Part shown: positions 1,682 to 33,269 of the stretch, one piece after another
Position numbering within the stretch: the stretch's first letter is position 1
Layout of the letters: each line of letters begins with the position of its first letter
NCBI RefSeq assembly: GCF_030625865.1
Contig: NZ_DAOUQB010000029.1
Location: 1 to 35,747, forward strand
Reading direction: 5' to 3'
Length of the DNA stretch: 35,747 nucleotides
From: Anaerotignum sp.
Lineage (GTDB): Bacteria; Bacillota; Clostridia; Lachnospirales; Anaerotignaceae
Notes under the pieces: model-generated
Database searches by the model: none
Seen by the model: only the letters and a program-made list of their open reading frames with translations
Told to the model about the DNA's origin: nothing
Position numbers and translations under genes: made by a program

Positions 1682-3451
1682 TTAATTTTTTTGTTTTTCT
1701 CCAGGCAACCCTGCATAAACAAAACCTGTGGAAGCATCTACTGAAATCAATGCATCACCGGGAATAAAATCCGTTACTTTTGCATTACAAATAATCACGG
1801 GGATATCCAGTGCTCTTCCTGCAATTTCTGCATGACAGTCATCACTATGATCCATAGGACCCACAATAATGGCAGAAGCTTTTTGAATATAGGGCATAAA
1901 GTCATTATCCGTAGCTGATACAACCAGAATATCTCCTTTTTGAAAATTACGCTCCATATCCTCACGCATTCTTATGATTCTTGCTCTACCGCTGGCTTTT
2001 TTTGTCCCAACACCAATGCCTTTGCAAAGCACATCTCCAACGATATCCACACGAAGGGTATTGGTTGCTCCGCTTACACCAAGGGGCATACCCAATGCCA
2101 AGACAACCGTATCCCCGTTTTTCACAAGCCCGCTTGCCTGAATAATATTCATACCGGTATCAAAAACCTTTCCCTGGGGCAGTTTTTCTTTATGCAGCAT
2201 TGGTTTGCATCCCCAGACCAAATTAAGCTGACGCCAAACTTGATCGGTCATAGTTGCTGCAACAATAGGACAAATGGGTCTATGCTTCGATATCATTCTT
2301 GCAGTAAAACCTGACTGTGTTATGGTGCAAATACAAGCTGTATTCAATTCCGCAGCCGTTGTACAAGCAGCAAAACTAATTGCGTTAGTAATATTGGTTG
2401 TAACACCATCCGGCTGTCTGGTTAATAATTTGCTGTAATTAATACTGCTTTCTGCCTTCTCCGCAATACGCGCCATGGTTGCAACAGCCTCAAGGGGGTA
2501 ACTACCCGCTGCTGTTTCCCCAGAAAGCATAATAGAATCACTGCCATCAAAAATTGCATTTGCAACATCATTTGCTTCTGCTCTTGTTGGTCTTGGGCTA
2601 TTGACCATGCTTTCCAGCATTTGTGTAGCCGTAATAACCGGCTTACTACGTTGGTTGGCCTTTGCAATCAACTGCTTTTGAACCAAAGGCACTTCTTCTG
2701 GAGGAATCTCCACGCCCAAGTCCCCTCTGGCAACCATAATACCGTCAGAAACCTCTAAAATTTCATCGATGTGGTCTACACCCTCTTGATTTTCAATCTT
2801 CGCAATAATATGAATGCCCTCGCCGCCATTATCCTCTAATACTTTTCTGATTCTTGTTACATCAGAAGCAGAACGAATAAAGGATGCCGCTACAATATCA
2901 AAACCATTTGCAATTCCAAATTTTAAATCATCAATATCTTTTTCTGTTAAAGAGGGTAAATTCAATCTAATGCCAGGCAAATTTACACCTTTTCTTGAAC
3001 CAACCTTACCACCGTTTATAACGGAGCACTGCACCTCAGGGCCTGCAATGTGATCTACTTTAAGCTCAATTAAGCCATCATCAATTAATACTCGAGAACC
3101 GTTCTGTAAATCTTTCGGCAAATCTAAATAAGTTACAGATACCTTTTCCTTTGTTCCCTCCACTTCTTCCGTGGTTAATGTAAATTTGTCTCCCGGTTCC
3201 AGAAAAATTTTACCCTCGGCAAAGGTTTTAATTCTGATTTCCGGGCCTTTGGTGTCCAAAATCAACGGAATTGGCGCTCCCAGTTCCTCTCTGGCCTGCT
3301 TTAATTTTTTAATTGTTTCCCCGTGAGATTCGTAATTTCCGTGGGAAAAATTTACGCGGGCAGCATCCAACCCATTTTCAATTAATTTCTTCATAATTTC
3401 AACACTGTCGGTTGCTGGTCCCAGTGTGCAAACAATTTTTGTCCTGCGCAT
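1682..3451 (-). CDS. pyk: Pyruvate kinase with C-terminal PEP-utilising domain
   Basis: This cytosolic enzyme converts phosphoenolpyruvate and ADP to pyruvate and ATP, the last step of glycolysis. The 589-residue length is that of the long Bacillus-type enzyme (about 585) rather than the short 470-residue type. The N-terminus R-R-T-K-I-V-C-T-L-G-P-A, the I-I-A-K-I-E-N motif with the catalytic lysine near residue 220, the M-V-A-R-G-D-L-G-V motif near 240 and the T-A-T-Q-M-L-E-S-M motif mark the catalytic barrel. Residues from about 485 to 585 form the extra PEP-utiliser-like domain (C-H-A-E-I-A-G-R-A region). A GAGGAGG ribosome site precedes the ATG. It lies downstream of pfkA, but the 375-base repeat-containing spacer between them may separate the transcripts. 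Confidence 0.96.
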   Translation of the reverse strand: MRRTKIVCTLGPATDSVEIMKKLIENGLDAARVNFSHGNYESHGETIKKLKQAREELGAPIPLILDTKGPEIRIKTFAEGKIFLEPGDKFTLTTEEVEGTKEKVSVTYLDLPKDLQNGSRVLIDDGLIELKVDHIAGPEVQCSVINGGKVGSRKGVNLPGIRLNLPSLTEKDIDDLKFGIANGFDIVAASFIRSASDVTRIRKVLEDNGGEGIHIIAKIENQEGVDHIDEILEVSDGIMVARGDLGVEIPPEEVPLVQKQLIAKANQRSKPVITATQMLESMVNSPRPTRAEANDVANAIFDGSDSIMLSGETAAGSYPLEAVATMARIAEKAESSINYSKLLTRQPDGVTTNITNAISFAACTTAAELNTACICTITQSGFTARMISKHRPICPIVAATMTDQVWRQLNLVWGCKPMLHKEKLPQGKVFDTGMNIIQASGLVKNGDTVVLALGMPLGVSGATNTLRVDIVGDVLCKGIGVGTKKASGRARIIRMREDMERNFQKGDILVVSATDNDFMPYIQKASAIIVGPMDHSDDCHAEIAGRALDIPVIICNAKVTDFIPGDALISVDASTGFVYAGLPGEKQKN

Positions 3452-3826: not shown

Positions 3827-4807
3827 TTAAATGGCAAGAATTTTAATTACATTGTATATATCTTGATTCAAATTTTTCTCCATCCCCATAGATTCCACCA
3901 GCTCAATGACCTCGTATCTTCCTTTATTAAAACTTACAACTTGATTTTGTTTTCCTTCCATAATGGCTTTTACGGCATGATAACCCATCATGGAAGCATG
4001 CATGCGGTCAATTGCTGTGGGACTTCCGCCTCTTTGCAAATGACCAAGGATGGTGGCTCTCGTCTGGATACCAGTAATATCTTGAATATCCTTTGCTAAT
4101 TTCTGCGTGCCGCCAACACCTTCCGCAACTACAATCAAATTATGCCTTTTTCCAATGCTTCTGTTCTCTAAAATTTGCTGAATTACCCTCTGGCTATTTA
4201 TAACATCCTTTGCTTCGGGAAACATAACATCCTCAGCGCCACCAACCATACCGCACCATACCGCAATATATCCGGCATCACGCCCCATAACCTCAACTAC
4301 TGAACAGCGTTCATGAGAACTGGAGGTATCTCTCAATTTATTCAAAGCATCCATCCCTGTATTCACGGCAGTGTCAAAACCAATGGTATACTCCGTGCTA
4401 TTCATGTCCAGATCTATTGTAGCAGGGATACCAATGCAATTGACCCCTAGCTTTGCCAATTCTGCCATGCCTTTATATGAGCCGTCACCACCAATAACAA
4501 TTAATGCGTCCAATCCTAAAATTTTGTAAATCGCCGCTGCTTTGTTCAGCCCTTCTTCCGTCATCATTTCAGGACAACGTGCCGTATGCAAAATTGTGCC
4601 GCCTAAGTTCATCACATTGGATACATCTTTGCTATGCATCTCCTTGATTTCGCCATTAATCAGACCATTATAACCTTTGCGTATGCCGGTCACCTGAATA
4701 TCGTTAAAAAGAGCCGTTCTTACGACTGCACGAATAGCAGCATTCATACCTGGGGCATCCCCACCGCTGGTTAACACACCGATTTTTTTAATCTTTTTCG
4801 TTTCCAT
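3827..4807 (-). CDS. pfkA: ATP-dependent 6-phosphofructokinase
   Basis: This enzyme phosphorylates fructose 6-phosphate to fructose 1,6-bisphosphate with ATP in the cytosol, the committed step of glycolysis. The 326-residue protein carries G-G-D-A-P-G-M-N-A near residue 13, G-G-D-G-S near 103 (the glycine after GGD argues for ATP rather than pyrophosphate), T-I-D-L-D near 130 with the catalytic aspartates, M-G-R-D-A-G-Y-I-A and L-G-H-L-Q-R-G-G-S-P. T-I-D-L-D instead of the common T-I-D-N-D is, from memory, frequent in clostridial enzymes. I prefer the ATG at 4807, eight bases after AGGAGG, over the GTG at 4810. It follows mtrB by 23 bases in the same direction and is probably co-transcribed with dnaE and mtrB. 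Confidence 0.96.
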   Translation of the reverse strand: METKKIKKIGVLTSGGDAPGMNAAIRAVVRTALFNDIQVTGIRKGYNGLINGEIKEMHSKDVSNVMNLGGTILHTARCPEMMTEEGLNKAAAIYKILGLDALIVIGGDGSYKGMAELAKLGVNCIGIPATIDLDMNSTEYTIGFDTAVNTGMDALNKLRDTSSSHERCSVVEVMGRDAGYIAVWCGMVGGAEDVMFPEAKDVINSQRVIQQILENRSIGKRHNLIVVAEGVGGTQKLAKDIQDITGIQTRATILGHLQRGGSPTAIDRMHASMMGYHAVKAIMEGKQNQVVSFNKGRYEVIELVESMGMEKNLNQDIYNVIKILAI

Positions 4808-4830
4808 CACATATTCCTCCTATCCCAAAT

Positions 4831-5073
4831 TTATTCCTTCTCCGATTTTTCCGTATGAATCACACCAAATTGCGTATAAATTTCCGCCTCACCTCTTACT
4901 TTAATGGCAGAAGTATTCGAAGTAAACTGAGCAATGAGAACCTCACCTTTATCAAGTTTTTCCGTATGGTGAATTTTTGTAACCTCACCTCGTGTAACCC
5001 CGATGATGCTTACACCCTTTTCCAGTGCCTTCACACAAATATATGGGGTATTTTCTACACTCTTTTCCTCCAT
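4831..5073 (-). CDS. mtrB: TRAP, tryptophan RNA-binding attenuation protein
   Basis: The 80-residue product aligns almost without gaps to Bacillus subtilis TRAP, which forms an 11-subunit ring that, with bound tryptophan, wraps RNA carrying eleven (G/U)AG repeats and so attenuates trp expression. The RNA-binding triad K37, K56, R58 of B. subtilis is present here as K39, K58 and R60 (A-I-K-V-R-G). Tryptophan-pocket positions are also kept: G25, T27, T32, H36, Q49, T51 and S55, within E-K-L-D-K-G-E-V and I-A-Q-F-T. The AGGAGGAG ribosome site overlaps the dnaE stop codon, so translation is probably coupled to dnaE. No trp gene or (G/U)AG-repeat target is visible in the window. The product is confident from sequence; its targets are unknown. 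Confidence 0.9.
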   Translation of the reverse strand: MEEKSVENTPYICVKALEKGVSIIGVTRGEVTKIHHTEKLDKGEVLIAQFTSNTSAIKVRGEAEIYTQFGVIHTEKSEKE

Positions 5074-5086
5074 ACGGCATCTCCTC

Positions 5087-8000
5087 CTAGCTGTCCTTTG
5101 CCACTACGTTGGCTTCTCCCAGTAAAAGCTTTAGCTCTTCCTGCAATTCCAAAGAACCATTTACCCAATACTTTCTTTCGGCTTTCATTTTATCTTTTGT
5201 TTTTTCTTGATAAATATAAACGGGAATATTCCCTTTATGTCTCATTAAAACCGCTATAATTTGCTGTAAAGAAATTTCTTTTCCGTTTTCAATTTTCAGC
5301 CACAAAGTCGTGGGTACTTTTTCTTCCTCCAACTGTAATACCTGAATTTGGGATGCAATGACTTTTGCTTCTCCATCAGCGGATACATTTGCTCTACCTT
5401 TAATCAGTATAACCGTTTCTTCCAGTAAAAGTTCGGAAAATTGCTGATAAACCTTTGGGAAAACAATGACTTCCACCGTTCCTCGAAAATCTTCAAGGGT
5501 TAAAAAAGCCATTTTGTCATTATTTCTTGTATATTTTACCGATACTCCTGCGATCATGCCCCCAATAATGACTTTGGTTTGATCCGCAATCTGCTGTCGC
5601 TCCTCGCCCTCTTCATCAGGCAAAAAATCCAAACTGTTGTGACTCGTTTTTCTGCTGAGTCTATCCTGATATTCTGCCAAAGGGTGACCGCTTACATAAA
5701 TCCCCAAAACCTCTTTCTCCATTGCCAGCTTATCTCTTGGCTCATACTCTGCCACCTTCGGTAAGTCGTCCTGTAGCTGATAGCTTTCTTCTCCCATATC
5801 CATTTCAAATAAATTCAACTGCCCGGCAATATTATTCTTTCTCGCCTGCCCAATTCCATCCAAAATGCTTTTATATATGGCCATATATTGACTTCTGGCA
5901 CCCCCCAAAGAGTCCATGGCCCCAGCTTTAATCAAGCTTTCAATACTGCGCTTATTGATTTCTCCCGTCTCCATTCGGTTACAAAAATCTGTCATAGACT
6001 GAAATGAAGCACCTTTTTTCCTTTCTGCAACCAAAGCATTTACAACACTGCGTCCCACATTTTTAATAGCGGCAAGCCCAAACCGTATTCTTCCTTTGGA
6101 AACAGAAAAGTGCCCATAACCCTCATTAATATCTGGCGGAAGCAATGCAATGCCCATTTTTTTGCATTCTTCAATATAGCTCGAGACCTTGCTTGCATTA
6201 TCCATAACGCTTGTCATCAATGCCGCCATAAATTCCACAGGATAATGAGCTTTGAGCCATGCCGTTTGATAGCCAACAACGGCATAGCAAGCCGCATGGC
6301 TTTTGTTAAAGGCATACTTAGCAAAATCCGTCATTTCATCAAATATTTTTTCCGCAACTTCCGCCGGAATCCCGTGTTTTACGCAACCGGGAACTTCCTC
6401 CCCAACGCCATATACGAAATTTTTTCTTTCTTCAGCCATAACCGCTGCTTTTTTCTTACTCATGGCACGGCGTACCAAATCGCTTCGTCCAAGACTATAG
6501 CCCGCCAAGTCTCGCACAATTTGCATAACCTGTTCTTGATATACAATACAGCCATACGTATTTTGCAAAATGGGTTCCAAACTTTCATGGGTATATTGAA
6601 TGTTCTCCGGGTTGTTTTTCCCCTTGATATACTTAGGGATAAAATCCATAGGGCCTGGGCGATACAAGGAAATCCCGGCAATCAAATCTTCCAGACGCTT
6701 GGGTTGAAGCTCTCGCATAAACTGTTTCATGCCCGCACTTTCCAACTGAAAAACGCCCTCCGTTTTCCCCTGACTAATCAGCTGATACACTTCCCCGTCA
6801 TCATCAGGGATTGCATCAATATCTATGGCAACACCATGAATACGCTCCACTTCTTGCACTGCATTCTGAATCACCGTTAGGGTACGCAAGCCAAGAAAGT
6901 CCATTTTTAAAATACCCAATTCCTCTAAAAGCGTCATGGTGTATTGCGTGTTGACCTGCCCATCATTGGCACTCAAAGGCACATACTCCATCACCGGTTC
7001 TTTACAAATTACAACCCCTGCCGCATGGGTAGAGGAATGCCTTGGCAACCCTTCCAAACGCAAGGAAGTATCAATCAACCGATGGGTATCCTCTTCTGTT
7101 TCATATGCCTTTTGCATATCAGGGTTCATGGTTAGGGCTTTTTTAATGGTAATCCCCAATTCTGTGGGAATCATTTTGGAAATCCGGTCAACCTCTGCAT
7201 AGGGCATAGCCAAAGCACGTCCTACATCCTTAATTGCTGCTCTGGCCGCCATAGTTCCAAAAGTAATAATCTGGGCAACGTGATCCTCCCCATACTTTTG
7301 AATTACATAGTCTATGACCTCCTGCCGACGCTCATAACAAAAATCAATATCAATATCCGGCATACTTACACGCTCAGGATTTAAAAACCGTTCAAATATC
7401 AAGTCATATTTTAATGGGTCAATGGTTGTAATAGATAAACAATAAGAAACCATACTCCCCGCCGCCGAACCACGCCCCGGGCCGACAATAATTCCGTTAT
7501 CTTTTGCATATTTGATAAAATCCCAAACGATAAGAAAATAATCCACATAACCCATATTTTCTATGGTAGAAAGCTCATATTCCAAACGTTCTTTCCACTC
7601 TTGTTTGCCCTGGGGATATTTTTCCCGAAAACCCGCCTCACAAATTTCCCTGAGATACTGCTGGGCTGTTTTTCCCTCCGGTACATCAAACCTAGGAAGC
7701 TTTAATTCATGAAAACGAAAAGAGACATTACATCTTTCTGCAATTTTTGCTGTGTTTTCCAAGGCCTGCGGAGCATAGGAAAATAAATCATACATTTCCT
7801 CTGGACTTTTCACATAAAACTGATCGCCCTCATAACGCATTCTGTCATCATCCAAAACCGTTTTTCCCGTCTGAATACAAAGCAAAATATCGTGAGGTTC
7901 CGCGTCCTCTTTATAAATATAATGGCTGTCATTTGTGGCAATCAAAGGGATCCCTGTTTCCTCGCTCATGCGAACCAAGGCCATGTTAACCTGCTTTTGC

Positions 8001-8569
8001 TCCCTCATGCCATGATCCTGAAGTTCCAGAAAGAAATTTCCCTCTCCAAAAATATCCAAATACTCCAAAGCTGATTCCTTTGCCTTTTCATAGGAAACCG
8101 TTAATATATTTCTGGCAACCTCTCCAGCCAAACAAGCACTGGAGGCAATAATTCCCTTATGATACTTTTTTAAAATAGCTTTGTCAACCCTTGGTTTATA
8201 ATAAAATCCATCAATAAATCCATAGGAAACCAGCTTTATTAAATTTTGATATCCCTCGTTGTTTTCAGCCAAAAGCACAAGGTGATAGTAACCCCCGCCT
8301 TTTCCATCCTTAACCAAGCGAGATTCTGCCGCCACATAAACCTCACAGCCGATTATAGGCTTCACCTCTGCCTCTAAAGCTGCCTTATAAAATTCTATAG
8401 CACCATACATCGCTCCATGATCCGTTATGGCAATGCTATCCATCCCCAACTCTTTTGTCCGTTGAACCAGTTCCTTTATCTTTGCAGAACCATCCAAAAG
8501 GCTATATTCCGTATGAACGTGCAGGTGCACAAAGGGCTTTGTCTGATTTGTATTTTCCATAAACTCCAT
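5087..8569 (-). CDS. dnaE: DNA polymerase III subunit alpha (DnaE type)
   Basis: This is the replicative C-family polymerase subunit that extends primers at the fork. The 1160-residue length fits DnaE. An N-terminal PHP domain starts with H-L-H-V-H (residues 15-19) and A-I-T-D-H-G-A-M-Y-G-A. The polymerase core has G-P-G-R-G-S-A-A-G near 365, the catalytic aspartates in P-D-I-D-I-D-F near 400 and a further aspartate in L-K-M-D-F-L-G-L-R near 555. A helix-hairpin-helix region and a C-terminal OB fold (I-G-G-M-I-A-G-V) follow. The ATG at 8569 has AGGAGGTG seven bases upstream. It heads a minus-strand cluster with mtrB and pfkA. Firmicutes also use PolC; which one leads synthesis here cannot be seen. 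Confidence 0.96.
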   Translation of the reverse strand: MEFMENTNQTKPFVHLHVHTEYSLLDGSAKIKELVQRTKELGMDSIAITDHGAMYGAIEFYKAALEAEVKPIIGCEVYVAAESRLVKDGKGGGYYHLVLLAENNEGYQNLIKLVSYGFIDGFYYKPRVDKAILKKYHKGIIASSACLAGEVARNILTVSYEKAKESALEYLDIFGEGNFFLELQDHGMREQKQVNMALVRMSEETGIPLIATNDSHYIYKEDAEPHDILLCIQTGKTVLDDDRMRYEGDQFYVKSPEEMYDLFSYAPQALENTAKIAERCNVSFRFHELKLPRFDVPEGKTAQQYLREICEAGFREKYPQGKQEWKERLEYELSTIENMGYVDYFLIVWDFIKYAKDNGIIVGPGRGSAAGSMVSYCLSITTIDPLKYDLIFERFLNPERVSMPDIDIDFCYERRQEVIDYVIQKYGEDHVAQIITFGTMAARAAIKDVGRALAMPYAEVDRISKMIPTELGITIKKALTMNPDMQKAYETEEDTHRLIDTSLRLEGLPRHSSTHAAGVVICKEPVMEYVPLSANDGQVNTQYTMTLLEELGILKMDFLGLRTLTVIQNAVQEVERIHGVAIDIDAIPDDDGEVYQLISQGKTEGVFQLESAGMKQFMRELQPKRLEDLIAGISLYRPGPMDFIPKYIKGKNNPENIQYTHESLEPILQNTYGCIVYQEQVMQIVRDLAGYSLGRSDLVRRAMSKKKAAVMAEERKNFVYGVGEEVPGCVKHGIPAEVAEKIFDEMTDFAKYAFNKSHAACYAVVGYQTAWLKAHYPVEFMAALMTSVMDNASKVSSYIEECKKMGIALLPPDINEGYGHFSVSKGRIRFGLAAIKNVGRSVVNALVAERKKGASFQSMTDFCNRMETGEINKRSIESLIKAGAMDSLGGARSQYMAIYKSILDGIGQARKNNIAGQLNLFEMDMGEESYQLQDDLPKVAEYEPRDKLAMEKEVLGIYVSGHPLAEYQDRLSRKTSHNSLDFLPDEEGEERQQIADQTKVIIGGMIAGVSVKYTRNNDKMAFLTLEDFRGTVEVIVFPKVYQQFSELLLEETVILIKGRANVSADGEAKVIASQIQVLQLEEEKVPTTLWLKIENGKEISLQQIIAVLMRHKGNIPVYIYQEKTKDKMKAERKYWVNGSLELQEELKLLLGEANVVAKDS

Positions 8570-19677: not shown

Positions 19678-20031
19678 GGGGATGTAATGGTTTCGACGGG
19701 AGTCTTGAAAATAGGGATAGCCATCCGCAGGCCGGTTAACTGCGTCATCAAGCCGGAAACTTTTAAAAAAGAAACGACAATAATAATTTAGCAATCGCTG
19801 CCTAATTGCGGCAGCCGTCGGCCTTTGATCACTCGCTGTCAGAGTAACCGGCGTCGACTAGGCGGGGCACTTTTTCACTTAAGCTTTGCGGTGAAAAAAG
19901 AATTATGAAGCTACTAAGGGATACAGCCTGTCAATCGGCGATATTCCAAGGGAATGTTAAAAGACTGACTGTGATGGGAGAAGTTCTTATGGATGGGTTT
20001 TCGGACAGGGGTTCGATTCCCCTCATCTCCA
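19678..20031 (+). ncRNA. ssrA: Transfer-messenger RNA (tmRNA)
   Basis: The 5' end GGGGATG pairs with CATCTCC at the 3' end to form the tRNA-like acceptor stem, and the T-arm GGTTCGATTCC is present near 20010. The tag reading frame ends at 19803-19805 (TAA) and can be read as K-R-N-D-N-N-N-L-A-I-A-A from 19767; an in-frame TAA at 19764 bounds it upstream, so the exact resume codon is uncertain. The tag ends in A-I-A-A, a normal proteolysis signal. After the discriminator A the genome continues with T, so CCA is not encoded and must be added. The 3' end is also the left edge of the foreign island. Confidence 0.96.
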
Positions 20032-20089
20032 TTTTTTTCTAGGTATTTTACAAAGCCTAGAAACTAGGGAAAACGCTGAATTATCAGCA

Positions 20090-20532: not shown

Positions 20533-21369
20533 TTAAGCAATTTTCCCTCTAATGATTATAAGGTCTACATCCATTAACGCCTTATACAGTGCAGTTCTCC
20601 AAGAGTTCTTTTCATATTCATAATTACTTAAATAAATTTGTTCTATGTATGTGCGTAAATGTTCTTTACCACCCTTATCTAATATATTCTGAAACATAGA
20701 ATGATTAGCCGCAAGTTCTTCTACCGCCTTTTTGGAATATAGCTTGCCAAGTTCGAAAGCATTTAAATGGCTCGATAACCTGTAACTTAATTGTTTATCC
20801 GAAAGGTCACTGCAAACTCCAAATTCTATGTAAATTGGCTGCACTGATATAATTTTTGCAGAAAGCCACTCATTCGCTTGGCAATCATCATAGTAAGGAT
20901 GTAGTGTCATGTCAGAAGCGTGTTTAAAATCCATTGAACGTTTATTTTCATTGCAATCCCTGCAAGCCGGCACCAAGTTTTGCGGAGTAACTGCTAGGAA
21001 TGGGTATAAAGTTTTGGCTAAGTAGTGATCAAGCGTAGATACTTGACCAACACCACATATCGGACAAATTCCATTTTGCGCACTCAACTTAAGTCTATCA
21101 TAGTACTTTCTACCAGGCTGTCCCAACTTTGCGAATTTATCAGTATATAATTTTATCATATCCTCTTTGTTTAAGTCTTCTGTCACTTTAGTATGATTCT
21201 GCAACAAATGTGCCGTAGTACTCTCCATTTTTCTATTGAAGTCTTCCGAATATGCGGTTATTTTGGCAATGGCATTTAAATATTTCAAGTCACTTCCATC
21301 ACGCATATTACTCACGCAGCAATTGATAATCTCTCCAATTGACATTGTTGGTTTATCTATTTTTCGCAT
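20533..21369 (-). CDS. ptuB: HNH endonuclease of a Septu-type system (PtuB-like)
   Basis: The 278-residue product has an HNH nuclease core at about residues 100-140: C-P-I-C-G, then L-D-H-Y-L-A-K, N-L-V-P-A-C and C-R-D-C-N-E-N-K, followed by L-H-P-Y-Y-D-D, a layout I know from PtuB of Septu and related retron-associated nucleases. The four cysteines bind structural zinc; the D-H histidine is the general base. It starts four bases after the ATPase gene stop on the same strand, so the pair is translated together. The expected role is nucleic-acid cleavage on infection, controlled by the ATPase. The alternative is another ATPase-HNH defence family; no reverse transcriptase gene is present, so it is not a retron. 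Confidence 0.75.
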   Translation of the reverse strand: MRKIDKPTMSIGEIINCCVSNMRDGSDLKYLNAIAKITAYSEDFNRKMESTTAHLLQNHTKVTEDLNKEDMIKLYTDKFAKLGQPGRKYYDRLKLSAQNGICPICGVGQVSTLDHYLAKTLYPFLAVTPQNLVPACRDCNENKRSMDFKHASDMTLHPYYDDCQANEWLSAKIISVQPIYIEFGVCSDLSDKQLSYRLSSHLNAFELGKLYSKKAVEELAANHSMFQNILDKGGKEHLRTYIEQIYLSNYEYEKNSWRTALYKALMDVDLIIIRGKIA

Positions 21370-21373
21370 TACT

Positions 21374-22864
21374 TTACTCCTCCGTAAATTGAAGTGCCAT
21401 AACCTTTAGAATACCTAATGCCTCTGCCCCTAATTGTCCATCAAACTCATCTTTTGCAGTGTCATAGTCCCCGTGTTCCTTATTTAAAACATCGCTTAGC
21501 ATTTTATGAAAACCAGAATTTGTAACTTCTAGGCCAAACACTTCAGAGGTAAGGACACCTACATTTTCACCAAACGTTTCAATATGAGGTCGGTCTGCAG
21601 CTACTTCTTCCCCTGAACGCCGAATAATCCATACGCAACTTTTAGGAACCTCTTGCAATATCACAGGCGAATGAGTAGAAATAACTGCAACGCCATTTCT
21701 ATTTATTAGAAGTTGGGAAAGGGCCCTTGTAAATGCCGATAGTAGTGGTGGATGTAGATGTAGCTCCGGCTCATCCAACAATACTAATGTGCATTCTTCA
21801 ACCGTTTCAACTAAACGCGTTATTGTAAGTGCAACAATTTTATGGCCTGAACTCAGGGTATTAAATAGTTCTTTTATTGGTTGTTCGGCTTCACTACGAG
21901 TATAATTTTCCTTTATCCAATCAATGCAATCGATAATATTAATCTCTGAAAATATTGGGTCTGAATTTAAAATCCCTACTATTTTCTTCCAACGCTCATA
22001 ACGTGTTCGCTTTGTCATACATAATTTCATAGAGTACGCAAATTGCTGGTCAAGGCTCATCTCTTCTCCATCAGAAGTACTTTTAATTCCTATATAAGTA
22101 TACTTCATGTTATCATTATCCTGAACAGTAGGGAATTCATCAAAAGCGCTGAATGCCAAGCATACTATATTGGTGAAACGATTTCGTCTATTACCAAAAA
22201 CAAATTCTCCAAATCCACACTCTTCCCTATAAATCGTATTAATCATATTCTTAAGAACCCATGTTTTCCCGACACCATTTCGACCAATGAGAACATGAAT
22301 ATTTGTTGGGGGATTTGATTCTGGTACTACCGAAAATTTCAGTTGTGTAGAAGTGGTGTCATCGGAATTTGGGTAATTATACTTAAATTTATACCTAGTT
22401 AACTTAGCTCCACCATTTGCCATGCGTCGAAACTGATTTTCGATAGTTGAAATAGGTATACCTCTCGTAAGAGATGTTGAAAATACGTCCAAAGACATAT
22501 ATCGTTGTAATAAATCGGGTTTAAAAGCTATATCATTCAAGCTATTTAGTACAGTTTCTCGCTTCTTCACGCCCAATTTATTTAGAGAATCGTAATAATC
22601 TGTATCTTGTCCAAGACTAATAAACTTTTGCGAATCAAGGTGTTGAAATTCCTCCGGCAATTCAGGTATATTGGAAACCTTACCTGCTACCTGACCGATT
22701 TTAACCTGACCAATTTCTATAGTTTCTTTCTTTTTATTAATATAATAAAGTGTGTAAAGATTTTCATATCTCCACCAGTCATTCCAAGAATTATTATGCT
22801 GTAAAATGAAAGTACCTACTTTATATTCCTTATCATCTTCGCTATTGCAAATAAATAATGCCAA
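21374..22864 (-). CDS. ptuA: AAA/ABC-type ATPase of a Septu-type system (PtuA-like)
   Basis: This 496-residue protein has a single ABC/SMC-like ATPase fold: Walker A G-R-N-G-V-G-K-T near residue 195, signature L-S-S-G-H-K near 343, Walker B L-V-L-L-D-E-P-E-L-H-L-H-P near 365, and I-S-T-H-S-P near 397. There is no long coiled coil and no TOPRIM domain, which fits PtuA rather than OLD. The N-terminal 180 residues are unassigned. Translation appears to start at TTG (22864), seven bases after GAGGGG; no better ATG is nearby. It is directly followed by the HNH gene. In Septu, PtuA assembles with PtuB and gates its nuclease activity with nucleotide. Confidence 0.75.
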   Translation of the reverse strand: MALFICNSEDDKEYKVGTFILQHNNSWNDWWRYENLYTLYYINKKKETIEIGQVKIGQVAGKVSNIPELPEEFQHLDSQKFISLGQDTDYYDSLNKLGVKKRETVLNSLNDIAFKPDLLQRYMSLDVFSTSLTRGIPISTIENQFRRMANGGAKLTRYKFKYNYPNSDDTTSTQLKFSVVPESNPPTNIHVLIGRNGVGKTWVLKNMINTIYREECGFGEFVFGNRRNRFTNIVCLAFSAFDEFPTVQDNDNMKYTYIGIKSTSDGEEMSLDQQFAYSMKLCMTKRTRYERWKKIVGILNSDPIFSEINIIDCIDWIKENYTRSEAEQPIKELFNTLSSGHKIVALTITRLVETVEECTLVLLDEPELHLHPPLLSAFTRALSQLLINRNGVAVISTHSPVILQEVPKSCVWIIRRSGEEVAADRPHIETFGENVGVLTSEVFGLEVTNSGFHKMLSDVLNKEHGDYDTAKDEFDGQLGAEALGILKVMALQFTEE

Positions 22865-24753: not shown

Positions 24754-26643
24754 TTAATGTAATGCATCATCAATCAGTCCTATTCTTCCATTTGGATCAA
24801 ACTCTACTCTAATATCATCTTTTGGAACAAAATCAGGGTATCCATTATTTACTACTATCAGCTGCATACTCTCTCCTAATTCTTGTTCAAATTCAATAAA
24901 AGTTTTAATTACTGAATTGAAAATTTCCTCATCTCTAAATTCTTCCTGTGATACATCTGCTCCTAGATTTTTTCTAGGACTATCAATCATCAATAAGTTT
25001 AAGTGATAATATTTGTCTGTATCTAAAGTTACATTTAATATTGCTAAATAATAAGCTATTACTATTAATGTCACTCCTCCTAAACTGCCTAGGTCATTAT
25101 ATTTCCTACCCCTTACATAAGGTAAATATGTCTTTGAGTCTATGTACCCAAAATCCAATTTGGGAAAATGAAATGCTTTTAAATAATTATTAAATACAGT
25201 CGATAGCTCTTTTGTGACTTCATTTTTATCATTTTGATCAGTTGAAATTTTACCTATATTTTTTCTAATGCTAGATAAATCATCCTCTTTATTTTTTAGC
25301 AATTTAAGAAGTCGTTCATGTTCTTCTAGCATTTGTAGATTAAAATCTAATTCATGTAACTGGCGATTGAATTTTCCCATTTCAAAATTTAAGTACTCTA
25401 TCTTTTCAATATATGGATTTATATACCCTTGTTGCAAATGTTCTAATTCACCCTCTTTCTCAGCTAACTCTTTGTTTTTCTCACTTATTTTTCTGTCAAA
25501 AGTATCACTTTTTGCTTGTTCAACCGAAATATGTTTTTTTAATTCCGTATGTCTGCTTTTTAATGAACTCATGTCTTTTTTTACTTGCAATAAATCACTA
25601 ATTTCACTTGACATATCACTACCACATAATTTACAATGAGTCTCTTCATTACGTTCCTTCAAAGTTTTAAGACAATTAGGACAAACAATAAAATTATACT
25701 TATTTATTTCAGGAACACCTAATAAAATCATTTTACATTTATCAACATCATTCTGATATTGATTTAATAGCAATCTAAGCTTTTCTATATATTCATCTTG
25801 ATCTAATTTTTGTTCAATAAAAGCCTTTAATTCCTGTTTCAACTTAACGACTTCATTTCTTAATAATCTGGTCGTTTCATTTCCTATAACTTTATCATTT
25901 TTCACTCTTGTCAGCTCATCATTTAATGATAAAATACGATCTTTTATTTCATTCTTCTTACTGCGATAAGTTGCTATATTTCCAATATCCGTTGTACTTA
26001 TAAATTTTTCTACACCCTCCAATTGAAGTTTAAAATTATCTTTTTCTACCGTTTTTTCTTTAAGTGTTGCTTTCAGCTCCGCTAACATATCATCATAAAC
26101 ATTAAAAATTATCTCAAAAGTACTTTTTCTTTTATTATTTTTAAACCAAATAGATTCACCCATTAAGTCTTCTGTATCAACTTCTGTCTGTTTCAAATAA
26201 GAAAATTTAAAAATATCTCTAAAGCTTAAATTTTGATTCATAATTTTTATATTTCCTAAGCCTAGCTTATTAATTAAAAATGATGATAGGGATTTTTCAT
26301 TACTTGGTACATCAAATTCAAAAGTATCCAGATATTTGTATGTTTCTGTCTCTTGATTCCACTCGTCAACTCTTATTGGTAACATAAACTCAAATAATTT
26401 TCTTGTAATCCTATATTTTTTTGATTCTATTTGAATTTCTAATTCAACATCTGTACATGATTCACCTATTTCAATATATGATTTATGAGAGTCTGATCCT
26501 AAAGCATAATCTATCATTTCTAAAATAGATGTTTTTCCTGTAGATGTTGGTCCAGAAATATAATTCAAACCTTGTTTAAATGTAACTACATAACTATTTT
26601 TTTTACCAACTAATCGCAATGCTTCAATATATAATCTAGTCAA
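24754..26643 (-). CDS. ABC-3C system SMC/Rad50-like ATPase (DUF3732 type)
   Basis: The product is about 629 residues. Walker A is G-P-T-S-T-G-K-T-S near residue 30. A long coiled coil (about 180-460) is interrupted near 317-342 by two zinc knuckles, C-P-N-C and C-K-L-C. The head closes with S-L-G-G-V-T near 525 (signature-like) and a Walker B segment L-L-M-I-D-S-P near 552, where serine replaces the usual catalytic glutamate. This pattern fits the DUF3732 ATPases of ABC-three-component systems, thought to sense DNA or phage and control the effector. I favour a TTG start at 26643: it overlaps the stop of the middle-component gene as TTGA and lies six bases after GGGAGGG. An ATG at 26658 is the alternative. 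Confidence 0.72.
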   Translation of the reverse strand: MTRLYIEALRLVGKKNSYVVTFKQGLNYISGPTSTGKTSILEMIDYALGSDSHKSYIEIGESCTDVELEIQIESKKYRITRKLFEFMLPIRVDEWNQETETYKYLDTFEFDVPSNEKSLSSFLINKLGLGNIKIMNQNLSFRDIFKFSYLKQTEVDTEDLMGESIWFKNNKRKSTFEIIFNVYDDMLAELKATLKEKTVEKDNFKLQLEGVEKFISTTDIGNIATYRSKKNEIKDRILSLNDELTRVKNDKVIGNETTRLLRNEVVKLKQELKAFIEQKLDQDEYIEKLRLLLNQYQNDVDKCKMILLGVPEINKYNFIVCPNCLKTLKERNEETHCKLCGSDMSSEISDLLQVKKDMSSLKSRHTELKKHISVEQAKSDTFDRKISEKNKELAEKEGELEHLQQGYINPYIEKIEYLNFEMGKFNRQLHELDFNLQMLEEHERLLKLLKNKEDDLSSIRKNIGKISTDQNDKNEVTKELSTVFNNYLKAFHFPKLDFGYIDSKTYLPYVRGRKYNDLGSLGGVTLIVIAYYLAILNVTLDTDKYYHLNLLMIDSPRKNLGADVSQEEFRDEEIFNSVIKTFIEFEQELGESMQLIVVNNGYPDFVPKDDIRVEFDPNGRIGLIDDALH

Positions 26644-27104
26644 TATTGGCCCTCCCATACATTTTTAGATCTATCAATAATATCTTCATTTATCTTTTTA
26701 TCAGACATCTTAATTACGTTATGCAAAATATATTCTCCAGCTTTTGAAAGTGAACTCATATACTCACATTCCATATTCTTCAAAGCCTTTTCGCCATATT
26801 GCTCTATATGATAAGTATTCGTTGAATAAGAAATCATTTTTTTTGATACTAAAATTGATAATACAGCATCATATAATGAATAATTTGGCTTCATAAAATA
26901 AAAAGCATATTTTTCGTCAAAATTTTGTCTCTTTCTTTCTTCTTCCGTCATAAATGGAAACCTCATATAAAAATCAAACATAACAATCTTTTTTCCTGTT
27001 AAATGAAACTTTTCTTTTGCCTTAAATATTTCTACTATTTTTAATACCCTGATTAACGTTAAATAAAAATCAAAAAACTCAATATTCTTAACCATTTCCG
27101 TCAT
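26640..27104 (-). CDS. ABC-3C middle component
   Basis: This 154-residue protein has no catalytic motif that I can see. It is mainly helical with charged and aromatic segments, including F-M-T-E-E-E-R-K-R-Q and a winged-helix-like C-terminal half. Its size and its place between a nuclease-type effector and a DUF3732-like ATPase are what is expected of the small middle component of ABC-three-component systems, which bridges ATPase and effector. I choose the ATG at 27104, nine bases after GGAGG and overlapping the effector gene; the ATG at 27152 would lengthen the overlap without a ribosome site. Both ends overlap neighbours, so all three genes are translationally coupled. The assignment is mostly by context. 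Confidence 0.65.
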   Translation of the reverse strand: MTEMVKNIEFFDFYLTLIRVLKIVEIFKAKEKFHLTGKKIVMFDFYMRFPFMTEEERKRQNFDEKYAFYFMKPNYSLYDAVLSILVSKKMISYSTNTYHIEQYGEKALKNMECEYMSSLSKAGEYILHNVIKMSDKKINEDIIDRSKNVWEGQY

Positions 27105-28056
27105 CTTTTTCTGCCTCCATATATAATTCCAGCTTTTGTATATAACCATCAACCCATCCTAATTTTTTGTCTTCCGCTAATTGATGTCGCATGCCTTTCT
27201 TTGCCAAAAGACTAATATCATTTGATGATTTCAATGTTGTTGTATCTAAATCTTCAATTCTTAAATATGTATTATTTGCAAGTTCGTTACCATCTGTTGG
27301 ATGTTTATACATATTGTATTGCGTCTTCCAGACACTTCGTAATTTTTTTTGAAGTTGGTTATAAGCGATTTCTTCCTTTGTCTGACCTTTACTCAATATC
27401 TTTTGTTTAGCAATTTCTGCATTAAAAAAATCATTTTTATAATCATCTATATCAAAAATATTTGCAGACTCCAACATCTTCACAAAGATGCAGTCCTTAT
27501 ATGAAATATCAGAAAAATCATTAATATCATATATTATTTCATTATATATACGAGCATTTTCTTCTTTCAAATAATTTTTAATTTCCTTAAGCGCTAAACG
27601 GAGATCTTCATCAAAAACTCTATCGTACATATCACACTCTTGAAGTATCATTAATAATCTACTTCCGTCCATTAGCTCTACTTTAAGATTATCATCCTGC
27701 TGCTTCTCCGTTTTCCAATTAGACCACCATTTATGGTTTTCTACTGTAAAAAGAATAGGAACACATAAATACCACTCAGCCACTTTGTATTTTTCTGTCA
27801 CCGTCTTATAAGATTCTTTTATTTGAGACTTTTGTGTAGCACCAATTCCATCAATAAAATATTTGCATTGGTAAACTATCATATGTTTATCTAAATCTCC
27901 CACCAATACATCAATTCCATCATCCCCTGGTGAAGCTTGAACAGCATATGCATTTTCAAACTTTTTTTGAAATAACTGTATACATATTTTCTCAAATATA
28001 TCTCTTGCACCATGGTCCCCGTATTTTTCTCTTAAATACCTGAAATCTCGTTCCAT
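27088..28056 (-). CDS. ABC-3C effector with Mrr-like restriction nuclease domain
   Basis: The 322-residue product has an N-terminal PD-(D/E)XK nuclease domain: G-D-D-G-I-D-V near residue 46 and Y-Q-C-K-Y-F near 63, the Q-x-K form seen in Mrr-like enzymes. The C-terminal part ends with R-H-Q-L-A-E-D-K-K-L-G-W-V near 288-300, similar to the H-Q-L...G-W signature that I know from the C-terminal domain of ABC-three-component effectors, which ties them to the middle component. It is the first gene of the three-gene set, with two palindromes upstream. The likely role is DNA cleavage after the ATPase detects invading DNA (inference from the family). Confidence 0.75.
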   Translation of the reverse strand: MERDFRYLREKYGDHGARDIFEKICIQLFQKKFENAYAVQASPGDDGIDVLVGDLDKHMIVYQCKYFIDGIGATQKSQIKESYKTVTEKYKVAEWYLCVPILFTVENHKWWSNWKTEKQQDDNLKVELMDGSRLLMILQECDMYDRVFDEDLRLALKEIKNYLKEENARIYNEIIYDINDFSDISYKDCIFVKMLESANIFDIDDYKNDFFNAEIAKQKILSKGQTKEEIAYNQLQKKLRSVWKTQYNMYKHPTDGNELANNTYLRIEDLDTTTLKSSNDISLLAKKGMRHQLAEDKKLGWVDGYIQKLELYMEAEKDDGNG

Positions 28057-29821: not shown

Positions 29822-29863
29822 TGCCCCTCTCCTATAGGCGTAGGAAGAAGGGCGGGGCTTTTG
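29822..29863 (+). terminator. Terminator after the 186-residue protein gene
   Basis: GCCCCTCTC with GGGCGGGGC, plus an inner CCTA/TAGG stem, is followed by TTTT. The region from 29864 to 30049 holds a short inverted repeat (AACCCAAGAT at about 29869 with ATTTTGGGTT at 29921-29930) and no gene; it could contain the replication origin of the element. Confidence 0.6.
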
Positions 29864-30049
29864 ATAAAAACCCAAGATATAGTACTTATATTATACAACA
29901 TAGTACATCGTTTCACAAGTATTTTGGGTTGTTTTCCAAGTAAAAGCCTGTTTCTAAAACCTAGGAATTTAGGGGCAAAGTTGCCCTTTAACTCCTCGAT
30001 AACAAGATTAACATTAGGGCTATGGTTATTTATAGAAAGGGGTAAAGCA

Positions 30050-30853
30050 ATGCCAAGATATAGAAAACACATATGGGCAGGAGACGTATATGAGTGTGAG
30101 GAGTATTACTCCCCAAGAGCCATTGGAAAAAAATATAACAGAGGGCAAAATGAACTACTTACTTCCGAGGAACAGAAAGAACGAAATTTGAAATTGGCCA
30201 GAAGAAAATTATCCAGATTGATTAATGCAAATTTCAAACAGGGAGATTTGTTTATTACTCTTACATATCGAAATAGATTATCCCGGGAAGAAATCAAAAG
30301 AGAGCTGCGGAACTTTTTGAGCCGCTTAAGACGGTGGAGAAAGAAAAAAGGATTTTCTGCTATAAAGTACATCGTAGTAACAGAATCGGAAAGCGGGCGT
30401 GAGCATCATCATCTTTTGGTAAATGCCATGGATATTACTCTAAAGGAAATGACGAAATTGTGGGGGAACGGTAGAGTTATGATTTCCCAATTAGAACCGG
30501 GCGGAGATTATACAGGTCTGGCCAGATACATAACCAAGGAAAATGTAAAAGAGTATGAAAAAAGATGGTCCACCAGTAGAAATTTGGTACAACCAAGAGT
30601 TGTTGTGAAAAAAATAAATTCGGCCAACCCCAAAAAGAAACCCAAACCTCCCAAGGGGTTTTCTTTCATTTCTTTACCCCTTTCTAGACTTTTTACATTG
30701 ATTCTTTGCAATCTGTACAGAAGCTTTTACCTGTTTTTTTCTTATTTATTGAAGCTTAAGCTTTATCTTGATAGTCAGAAAGTTTCTCTAATAGGCTTTT
30801 CTGGTAGGCTTGGATTCTTTTGTTCCCCTCTCCACATGAGCCCCATGCAATGA
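30050..30853 (+). CDS. HUH rolling-circle replication initiator (Rep), abnormal C-terminal tail
   Basis: HUH endonucleases nick one DNA strand through a tyrosine and start rolling-circle replication or transposition. The ATG at 30050 follows GAAAGGGG. Motif 1 is F-I-T-L-T-Y near residue 66, motif 2 is E-H-H-H-L-L-V-N near 117-124 (the HUH metal site), and Y-I-T-K-E near 159 supplies the tyrosine and lysine. Up to K-P-K-P-P-K-G (about residue 204) the protein looks normal. Beyond that it turns into a hydrophobic, low-quality tail, crosses a hairpin near 30645-30665 and its last 98 bases run antisense to the DUF1643 gene. The native stop or C-terminus has probably been lost by frameshift or recombination. 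Confidence 0.72.
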   Translation: MPRYRKHIWAGDVYECEEYYSPRAIGKKYNRGQNELLTSEEQKERNLKLARRKLSRLINANFKQGDLFITLTYRNRLSREEIKRELRNFLSRLRRWRKKKGFSAIKYIVVTESESGREHHHLLVNAMDITLKEMTKLWGNGRVMISQLEPGGDYTGLARYITKENVKEYEKRWSTSRNLVQPRVVVKKINSANPKKKPKPPKGFSFISLPLSRLFTLILCNLYRSFYLFFSYLLKLKLYLDSQKVSLIGFSGRLGFFCSPLHMSPMQ

Positions 30854-31448: not shown

Positions 31449-33269
31449 ATGAAATTATCTAAAATTAAGATTAAAAATTTCAGAACATTTGAAGAAGAGA
31501 AGACAATTGATATTTATGACTTTACTTCACTTATTGGTGCCAATAATTGCGGTAAATCAACCATTTTAAAAGCAATTGAACTATTTCTCAATCAGGAAAA
31601 GCCGATTGACTCTGACTGGTGTAAAACATGCACTGGTGACATTGAAATTACAGCAACATTTTCTGATATTCAAGAATGGGAAAGAGATTTACCAGGTGTA
31701 GCAGGAATAATCCAGGAAAATGAAATTAAGCTTAAGGCTACTTATGACAGGGAAACTAAAAAGCCCAAATATGAAGCATTTATTCAAATGGAGATAATCA
31801 ATGATATTAATATTAATGATAATTTTACTTCTATAAATAGTGAATACAAAGAGATACTTAAAAGCATTGGAATTACGACTGCAAATGAATGGAAAGCAGT
31901 AGCTAATAAAGAACGCTTTAAACAACATCTAAGAGATAATCATCCTGGTAAAATCAGACTTGAAACTGCTGATTGGACTTCCGAAAATATTAGCATTGAT
32001 GCTGCGTTAAAACAAGCAATACCACATGTTGAGATTCTACCAGCAGTACGTGATGCTAGTGAAGAAACAAAACCACAAGCAAAAACTACATTTGGCAAGC
32101 TTTTGAATACCATTATTTTGCCAGCGATTCAAAGCACTCAAGAATTTAGTGAATTGAAGACATCTGTAGCAAAACTATCTGCAAAGTTGAGAGCGAAAGG
32201 TGAGGAGAATGGGGCACCAGAAGCTATTAGTAAGATGGTTGGGGAAATAACTGAACGAATGTCTGAATTGGTCAATATTAAAGCCATTTTAGATATATCT
32301 GAACCAGATACAGAAAAGTTTCTTGGTTCTAATGCAATACTGAAGCTCGATGATGGAACAGAAACTGAAATATCATATCAAGGACATGGGGCGCAGAGAG
32401 CACTGATTTTTTCACTTATTGATATAATTGCAAATCAAAGTAATCAAATAACCAGGGGTGATGAAACTATTCATACCCGAGCAACTATACTTCTTTTTGA
32501 AGAACCTGAATTGTACTTGCATCCACATTTAATGAAAAGATTAAAAGAATCTTTAATAAAAATATCACAAAAACATTCATGGCAAGTAATTATAAGTACG
32601 CATTCTCCATTTTTAATAGATATAATAGAAAATCCAAAATCTTTAGTTTTACTTAGAAAGACTGAAGGAGTACTTGCACCAAATGTATCTCAGCTTAAGG
32701 AAATTCCATTTAGTGATGATTCAAAAGAGGCATTACGTGCAGCTTTAGATTTTCACCCAACAGTTACAGAAGCATTCTTTGCACAACGGGTTATACTAGT
32801 TGAAGGCGATACTGAAATTGCGGTCTTGAAACACACTAAAAAATTATATTCTAAATATGGAATTGATTCGAAAAAATATTACGATACAACAGTAGTTTCA
32901 TGTGGAGGTAAATGGACAATACCTGCAATTGCTCAAGTTATGACGAAACTTAATATACCATATAGAATAATCCATGATAATGATGCAAAAGGACGCACTG
33001 AAAAAGAATTAGCAGAAATTACATATCCAATAGATCCATATAAAGCAAATAATAAGATACAAGAATCAGTAGGAGACCCTACTAAAATATTCATTGTAAA
33101 AGATACTTTTGAAGATGTCTTATGGGAAAGAAGCGACAATGAGAAAGTTTCATCAAAGGATAAGCCGTATAAATCATGGAAAAGAATTAATGAACTAATT
33201 GAAACAGAGGATTTTGAAACTAAATTTCCAGAACTAAAGAAAATATACGAATTTGCATTTAATTGGTAA
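31449..33269 (+). CDS. OLD-family nuclease (ATPase plus TOPRIM)
   Basis: The 606-residue protein combines an ABC-type ATPase with a C-terminal TOPRIM nuclease, as in P2 OLD and GajA of Gabija. Walker A is G-A-N-N-C-G-K-S at residues 29-36, Walker B F-E-E-P-E-L-Y-L-H-P near 350 and S-T-H-S-P near 384. TOPRIM shows V-E-G-D-T-E near 453 and the metal-binding D-N-D near 510. GGAGGAG precedes the ATG. No UvrD-like helicase follows, so this is not a normal Gabija (class 2) system; instead two membrane-protein genes come next on the same strand. The expected role is nucleic-acid cleavage against phage, with ATP or nucleotide as regulator. Confidence 0.85.
   Translation: MKLSKIKIKNFRTFEEEKTIDIYDFTSLIGANNCGKSTILKAIELFLNQEKPIDSDWCKTCTGDIEITATFSDIQEWERDLPGVAGIIQENEIKLKATYDRETKKPKYEAFIQMEIINDININDNFTSINSEYKEILKSIGITTANEWKAVANKERFKQHLRDNHPGKIRLETADWTSENISIDAALKQAIPHVEILPAVRDASEETKPQAKTTFGKLLNTIILPAIQSTQEFSELKTSVAKLSAKLRAKGEENGAPEAISKMVGEITERMSELVNIKAILDISEPDTEKFLGSNAILKLDDGTETEISYQGHGAQRALIFSLIDIIANQSNQITRGDETIHTRATILLFEEPELYLHPHLMKRLKESLIKISQKHSWQVIISTHSPFLIDIIENPKSLVLLRKTEGVLAPNVSQLKEIPFSDDSKEALRAALDFHPTVTEAFFAQRVILVEGDTEIAVLKHTKKLYSKYGIDSKKYYDTTVVSCGGKWTIPAIAQVMTKLNIPYRIIHDNDAKGRTEKELAEITYPIDPYKANNKIQESVGDPTKIFIVKDTFEDVLWERSDNEKVSSKDKPYKSWKRINELIETEDFETKFPELKKIYEFAFNW

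Follow-up and report, generated by a model that had tools for sequence, protein, structure and literature searches.

A genuine TRAP gene at its ordinary clostridial place in Anaerotignum, with a trpX-like uptake operon behind a T-box as its likely target

In this study, a short gene of Anaerotignum sp. between dnaE and pfkA was found to be a genuine gene for TRAP (mtrB), and clostridial mtrB is ordinarily located at this position. TRAP is likely to target the transcript of an uptake system of the tryptophan type that is encoded outside the window, by which we mean the whole stretch of DNA analysed (35,747 nucleotides). The leader of this trpX-like operon carries an array of NAG triplets downstream of a T-box, and such arrays co-occur with TRAP among relatives. 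Probably, a functional TRAP represses trpX translation through this array, a control stacked in cis on the T-box.

The mtrB gene occupies positions 4831-5073 of the minus strand as an open reading frame (ORF) of 80 codons. Its product of 80 residues matched the Pfam profile PF02081 with 117.8 bits (cut-off 21.3) and the NCBIfam equivalog NF009724 with 120.8 bits (cut-off 117); in a sequence search of the PDB, 15 distinct entries matched at E ≤ 0.001, every one of them TRAP/MtrB. Because mtrB is the only PF02081 match in the entire genome (G000; 2.75 Mb, 84 contigs, completeness 99.5%), its TRAP identity is far beyond chance, as the sequence-only reading had proposed. A monomer model of modest quality, predicted from the single sequence (pLDDT 73.8, pTM 0.62), showed seven strands and the fold of a TRAP subunit, with 41 PDB matches at E ≤ 0.001, all of them TRAP. 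Alignment with Bacillus subtilis TRAP, whose numbering is used here, revealed K37, K56 and R58, which we take to be the RNA-binding residues; T25, G27, T30, Q47, T49, T52 and S53, the positions presumably lining the tryptophan pocket, were unchanged. Near the pocket, D29 is replaced by V, F32 by I and H51 by N. Thus, the K-K-R triad reported earlier stands, and the statement that all tryptophan-pocket residues are kept was slightly too strong. Position 32 is I in 24 of 25 TRAP sequences of the family and F in 30/30 sequences of the class; D29 is replaced in 23/25 family sequences, and D is found in 30/30 class sequences. D29V and F32I set the Anaerotignum protein apart from Bacillus TRAP; they are unusual for TRAP and speak against the repression proposed here. 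Formation of a tryptophan-binding ring of 11 or 12 subunits and RNA binding would nevertheless be expected of this protein.

All genes of the cluster are on the minus strand. Upstream of mtrB lies dnaE, encoding the alpha subunit of DNA polymerase III (5087..8569; NF005298, 1856 bits, cut-off 1260); pfkA, encoding 6-phosphofructokinase (3827..4810; TIGR02482, 373.4 bits, cut-off 371.35), follows downstream, and the pyruvate kinase gene pyk (1682..3451; TIGR01064, 598 bits, cut-off 306) is next. The AGGAGG ribosome site of mtrB (5083..5088) overlaps the dnaE stop codon TAG (5089-5087). The mtrB start codon ATG is at 5073-5071 and its stop codon at 4833-4831; the ATG of pfkA (4807-4805, with an in-frame GTG at 4810-4808) lies exactly 23 bases past that stop. 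Both spacings had been given correctly before. No terminator-like site was found between window positions 4800 and 5100, and co-transcription of mtrB with dnaE and pfkA would fit this terminator-free stretch and the spacing. Between 3200 and 9000, promoter-like sites (15 vs 15.5 in shuffles) and terminator-like sites (2 vs 5.3) were not above the shuffles and therefore say little.

The sequence-only reading regarded the dnaE-pfkA setting as special and suggested a survey of relatives. TRAP was present in 25/58 genomes of the family, and at all 25 loci mtrB sits between dnaE and pfkA, with 10-34 bases from the dnaE stop to the mtrB start; pyk is within the flank of 24. Across the class, TRAP was found in 89/391 sampled genomes. 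Among the best-scoring 30 of 90 TRAP matches there, a biased selection, mtrB has DnaE as a neighbour in 29 and PfkA in 23; every one of the 30 loci has one or both. With the synteny conserved across family and class, the setting is not special and most of the surprise is gone; what it offers is a simple genomic address for clostridial TRAP. It is conceivable that the cluster itself is functional and ties tryptophan sensing to replication or glycolysis, and the gene order kept in the 25 family loci and the short gaps behind dnaE would agree with this. We consider it highly improbable: the order is accounted for by simple inheritance, 7 of the 30 class loci (best 30 of 90) showed no pfkA within a flank of 1.5 kb, and there is no NAG array in this part of the window, where the best chain has three triplets. 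The setting is no evidence for such a tie, and the position probably just supplies mtrB with steady expression. Three triplets is also the best NAG chain of the window as a whole, which bears out the earlier remark that the targets are absent from it.

To locate arrays, the genome was scanned for four-triplet runs and the matches were given a chain score. The scan returned 6 matches vs 3 in the reversed control, and only the match on contig C13 chained to nine triplets. This array (G000:C13, 73388-73435, minus strand; TAGatGAGatGAGacTAGaccattTAGatGAGaaaaAAGgaGAGggTAGt-ATG, with the start ATG at 73385) overlies the Shine-Dalgarno sequence of a trpX-like lipoprotein gene; it consists of eight KAG triplets and one AAG, with spacers of 2 bases except for gaps of 6 and 4. 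It thus has the features of a TRAP target, taken as about 9-11 NAG triplets, mostly GAG/UAG, with spacers of 2-3 bases near a trp gene. The repeats anticipated before a trp or tryptophan-transport gene were therefore found, with nine rather than the predicted eleven and with two wider gaps; these gaps, the AAG and the shortfall from the classical eleven count against the trpX operon as target. The leader (85 bases) reached a chain score of 6.6, which none of its 20000 dinucleotide shuffles attained. It also ranked above all else in 6038 windows of the genome (243,074 bases counting both strands, partly picked by pattern matches), where the runner-up scored 4.2; the trpE and trpB2 leaders of the same genome scored 1.0 and 3.0. 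A hairpin (centroid -12.6 kcal/mol) is predicted to take up part of the array, a point against this target, yet the leader as a whole is no more stably folded than its shuffles (z 0.76); on balance, folding weighs little either way.

The first gene of the operon behind the array encodes the substrate-binding protein of an ABC system (PF04392, 234 bits); the genes after it encode a permease (PF02653) and an ATPase (PF00005). The first gene is named trpX-like here because its score against NF041285 (233.4 bits) is under the cut-off of 390. The best PDB relative of its product is a solute-binding protein of Clostridioides difficile, which we take to be tyrosine-binding. Both points speak against the TrpX assignment, and tryptophan is the putative substrate of the Anaerotignum transporter. 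A trp operon is also present in the genome, with trpE recognised by PF04715 and the order trpEGDCFBA read by eye. Near it, a NiCo riboswitch (L039, 12843-12921, minus strand; 50.5 bits) precedes a gene that looks cation-efflux-like by eye.

A T-box (RF00230; L033, 5009-5251, minus strand; 106.7 bits, gathering threshold 93) lies upstream of trpX and ends 72 bases before the array. T-boxes also precede the trp operon and trpB2 of this genome. In the Rfam alignments, UGG stands at the presumed specifier position of the T-boxes before trpX and trpE, a position we take to be that of the specifier codon. Among 20 trpX-type loci checked, 17 had an Rfam T-box upstream, whether or not they bore an array; the three without are L062-L064 of genus g7, which have the array alone. 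The array is thus stacked on a T-box in g1, the genus of Anaerotignum sp. studied here, and in g3, and stands alone in g7. Regulation by anti-TRAP (PF15777) was considered for the family and rejected: none of the 58 genomes held a match over the cut-off, with no match at all in our genome, and the search gave four weak matches, which scored 20.8-24.3 bits and lay in open frames 396-838 aa long. As anti-TRAP is not recognisable, the cis T-box may take its place.

These features suggest a double check in cis on the trpX-like operon. Plentiful free tryptophan would load TRAP, and the loaded TRAP would bind the nine NAG triplets over the Shine-Dalgarno sequence and keep ribosomes off, so that trpX translation would be blocked and uptake would fall. 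The tryptophan-type T-box upstream would pass transcription only in the presence of uncharged tRNA-Trp. tRNA charging would be read at transcription and free tryptophan at translation, and no anti-TRAP would be needed.

The distribution of the array in the family supports its link to TRAP. A chain score of at least 4 was found at 14 of 24 trpX-type loci in 22 TRAP-positive genomes and at none of 30 loci (out of 36 matches) in 25 TRAP-negative genomes, where the maximum was 2.4; the cut at 4 was chosen after seeing a gap between 2.6 and 4.0. In three TRAP-positive genomes (G008, G017 and G037), nothing of the trpX type was matched at E ≤ 1e-40. At 12 of the 14 array loci, none of 300 shuffles was as good; for the two loci at score 4.0, 3 and 7 shuffles were. 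The co-occurrence is significant (Fisher p 6e-7), with a p value that ignores relatedness, which weakens all counts of this kind. By genus, arrays were found in 7/7 TRAP-positive genomes of g1, 4/4 of g3, 0/1 of g4 (G018, a weak array only) and 0/7 of g2; in g7, each of three genomes has one array locus, and two more loci score 0 and 1.0. Within-genus contrasts are the fairest evidence: the array is missing from the TRAP-negative congeners, 0/1 in g1 (G021) and 0/3 in g3 (G010, G014 and G016). G021 (one contig) is 94% and G014 99% complete; with completeness down to 80% in G010 and 77% in G016, TRAP could be missing from these two assemblies. One exception is G013 (g3, 360 contigs), which gave no TRAP match, yet has an array before trpB2.

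All seven g2 relatives possess TRAP but no trpX array; this counts against the trpX operon as target, as do the weak array of G018 and the three TRAP-positive genomes that gave no trpX-type match. TRAP may have been kept mainly for another target, such as trpB2 or some unknown gene, with the trpX array minor or decaying. The arrays before trpB2 in g3 (G008, G009 and G013) and the ten-triplet array before a different operon in G002 (g2) point the same way, as does the trpB2 leader of our genome, whose score of 3.0 exceeds the TRAP-negative trpX maximum; moreover, the chain score covers part of that genome. We nevertheless hold this to be unlikely, since the trpX array is kept in all seven TRAP-positive genomes of g1 and the trpE leader scores just 1.0. 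An even less probable reading, to which we give very little weight, is that TRAP does not act on the array, which would then be a side effect of coding sequence or of a ribosome site rich in purines. An in-frame GTG does allow the array to be read as an N-terminal extension, and NAG runs arise by chance, with six-triplet runs in 59/302 TRAP-negative genomes of the class (hand tally). Against this stand the 20000 shuffles, the 30 array-free loci of TRAP-negative genomes, and the recurrence of the array with different spacing before a relative in g7 that is 33-37% identical. Repression of the trpX-like gene by TRAP is thus the reading we prefer.

Many array-less trpX leaders contain a short ORF with an Arg-Trp core after the T-box. 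Such ORFs (CGA-TGG) lie between the T-box terminator and trpX, for example at L049-L053, L056, L098, L099 and L252-L292. When 134 loci were searched, with no codon seed, for small ORFs containing Arg-, Lys- or Ser-Trp, 39 had an ATG, a ribosome site and Arg-Trp; CGA precedes TGG in 38 of them, and six of the 39 are leaders listed under two ids. Among 69 distinct leaders of TrpX proteins at least 60% identical to that of our genome, counted with a CGATGG seed, 11 had an array, 34 a CGA-TGG ORF, none both and 24 neither (Fisher p 4e-4); in six of these 24 the motif is present with no passing ORF. G021 and the seven g2 genomes carry the ORF, so that g2 has kept TRAP even with the Arg-Trp peptide at trpX; the three g3 TRAP-negative loci have neither device. 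The codon after TGG is CGN in 30/34 ORFs, with all four third bases used, a pattern suggesting that it is the peptide that counts. Base pairing to sequence further downstream was considered as a reason why CGATGGCG is conserved, and was rejected as weak (mean z -0.55, 40 leaders). There is about an even chance that in this group of Clostridia the trpX-type leader is modular, a T-box followed by an exchangeable tryptophan device, either the TRAP array or the Arg-Trp peptide, never seen together and swapped between lineages, a protein-based sensor against a ribosome-based one. If true, this would be a natural experiment on the replacement of regulatory modules. The stacking of T-box and TRAP site, together with this possible swap, is the part worth following.

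The Anaerotignum protein belongs to the same family as Bacillus TRAP, which blocks ribosome binding at trpG, trpP and ycbK (PMC11255114). Unlike these translational targets, the candidate target in Anaerotignum is an operon for ABC-type uptake with a T-box in front of it. The neighbours of mtrB also differ: they are dnaE and pfkA here, and the folate gene mtrA in Bacillus according to the sequence-only reading. The tRNA-Trp signal of B. subtilis enters via anti-TRAP (rtpA), which is controlled by a T-box (PMC11255114). Both systems combine tRNA-Trp charging, read by a T-box, with free tryptophan, read by TRAP; the B. subtilis T-box controls anti-TRAP in trans, whereas in Anaerotignum the T-box and TRAP site share one leader, a way to combine the two signals with no recognisable anti-TRAP. 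The rtpA leader, described there as a T-box followed by a tryptophan leader peptide (PMC11255114), is the closest precedent for the Arg-Trp peptide. In Streptococcus suis, a TrpX-type uptake gene, trpX, is under a T-box (PMC9382623); Anaerotignum shares both elements and adds a TRAP array after the T-box, and the term TRAP is absent from the main text of the S. suis paper. The literature covered, made up of listings and a few passages with most subscription papers outside its scope, described neither mtrB in the dnaE-pfkA interval, nor a leader that combines a T-box with a TRAP array, nor an Arg-Trp peptide at trpX. Work by Gutierrez-Preciado from 2005 may deal with TRAP in Clostridia.

Further candidate targets emerged in the family and class. 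No T-box was found by Rfam at the g3 trpB2 arrays, where in G013 only 101 bases upstream were covered. In g1, the seven trpB2 leaders have T-box-like sequence (the Rfam match being that of our genome) and no clear array, and a permease gene of G033 (g7) has an array in front of it. In the G002 array (L185; G002:C12, 21151-21198, minus strand), the ribosome site of a gene of the Asp/Glu racemase family (PF01177) is covered by ten NAG triplets; genes for an unassigned protein and an aminotransferase-like protein follow, with 2-oxoacid-oxidoreductase-like genes upstream; this operon is a possible TRAP target in g2. A leader sequence model recovered the 15 trpX sites used to build it and, in addition, picked up trpB2 of both G009 and G013 as well as the G002 operon. 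Because it gave some match at E ≤ 1 in all 58 genomes, TRAP-negative ones included, its weaker matches are mostly chance. Five-triplet runs were rejected as evidence: they occur in 35/58 family genomes, the reversed control is about as common, and several are tandem repeats that belong to coding regions.

At class level, runs of six DAG triplets were found in 52/89 TRAP-positive vs 59/302 TRAP-negative genomes (hand tally; Fisher p 8e-12). The reversed control, which GAG arrays partly match, gave 24/89 and 45/302 (hand tally), so the TRAP-negative matches are near background. Inspection of 21 TRAP-positive loci with a NAG run, mostly by eye but with confirmation of the AMP-binding enzyme and of one example for each type of trp gene, showed a trp gene next to 12 (trpE 3, trpD 1, TrpP-like 3, trpB 3, trpB2 2), an AMP-binding enzyme at one and unrelated genes at eight. 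At L318-L320, a hairpin and T run after the array before trpE were seen by eye, like the Bacillus attenuator. Clostridial TRAP thereby gains candidate targets in trpX-like and TrpP transporters, trpE, trpD, trpB and trpB2. The AMP-binding locus (L328; G257:C1:1290658-1290685), in a TRAP-positive genome, has its six-triplet NAG run over the start of a CoA ligase-like gene, which could serve tryptophan catabolism.

Elsewhere in the window, a tmRNA gene (19678-20034) is followed by defence-like genes up to 33269. Defence library matches were obtained for a PtuA/PDC-M01 pair (20533-22864), Lamassu LmuA-LmuB-LmuC (24754-28056) and an OLD-like nuclease (31449-33269); an ORF at 29861-30853 (plus strand), with no match in that library, resembles a rolling-circle replication initiator by eye. 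The tmRNA gene may be the integration site of these defence-like genes.
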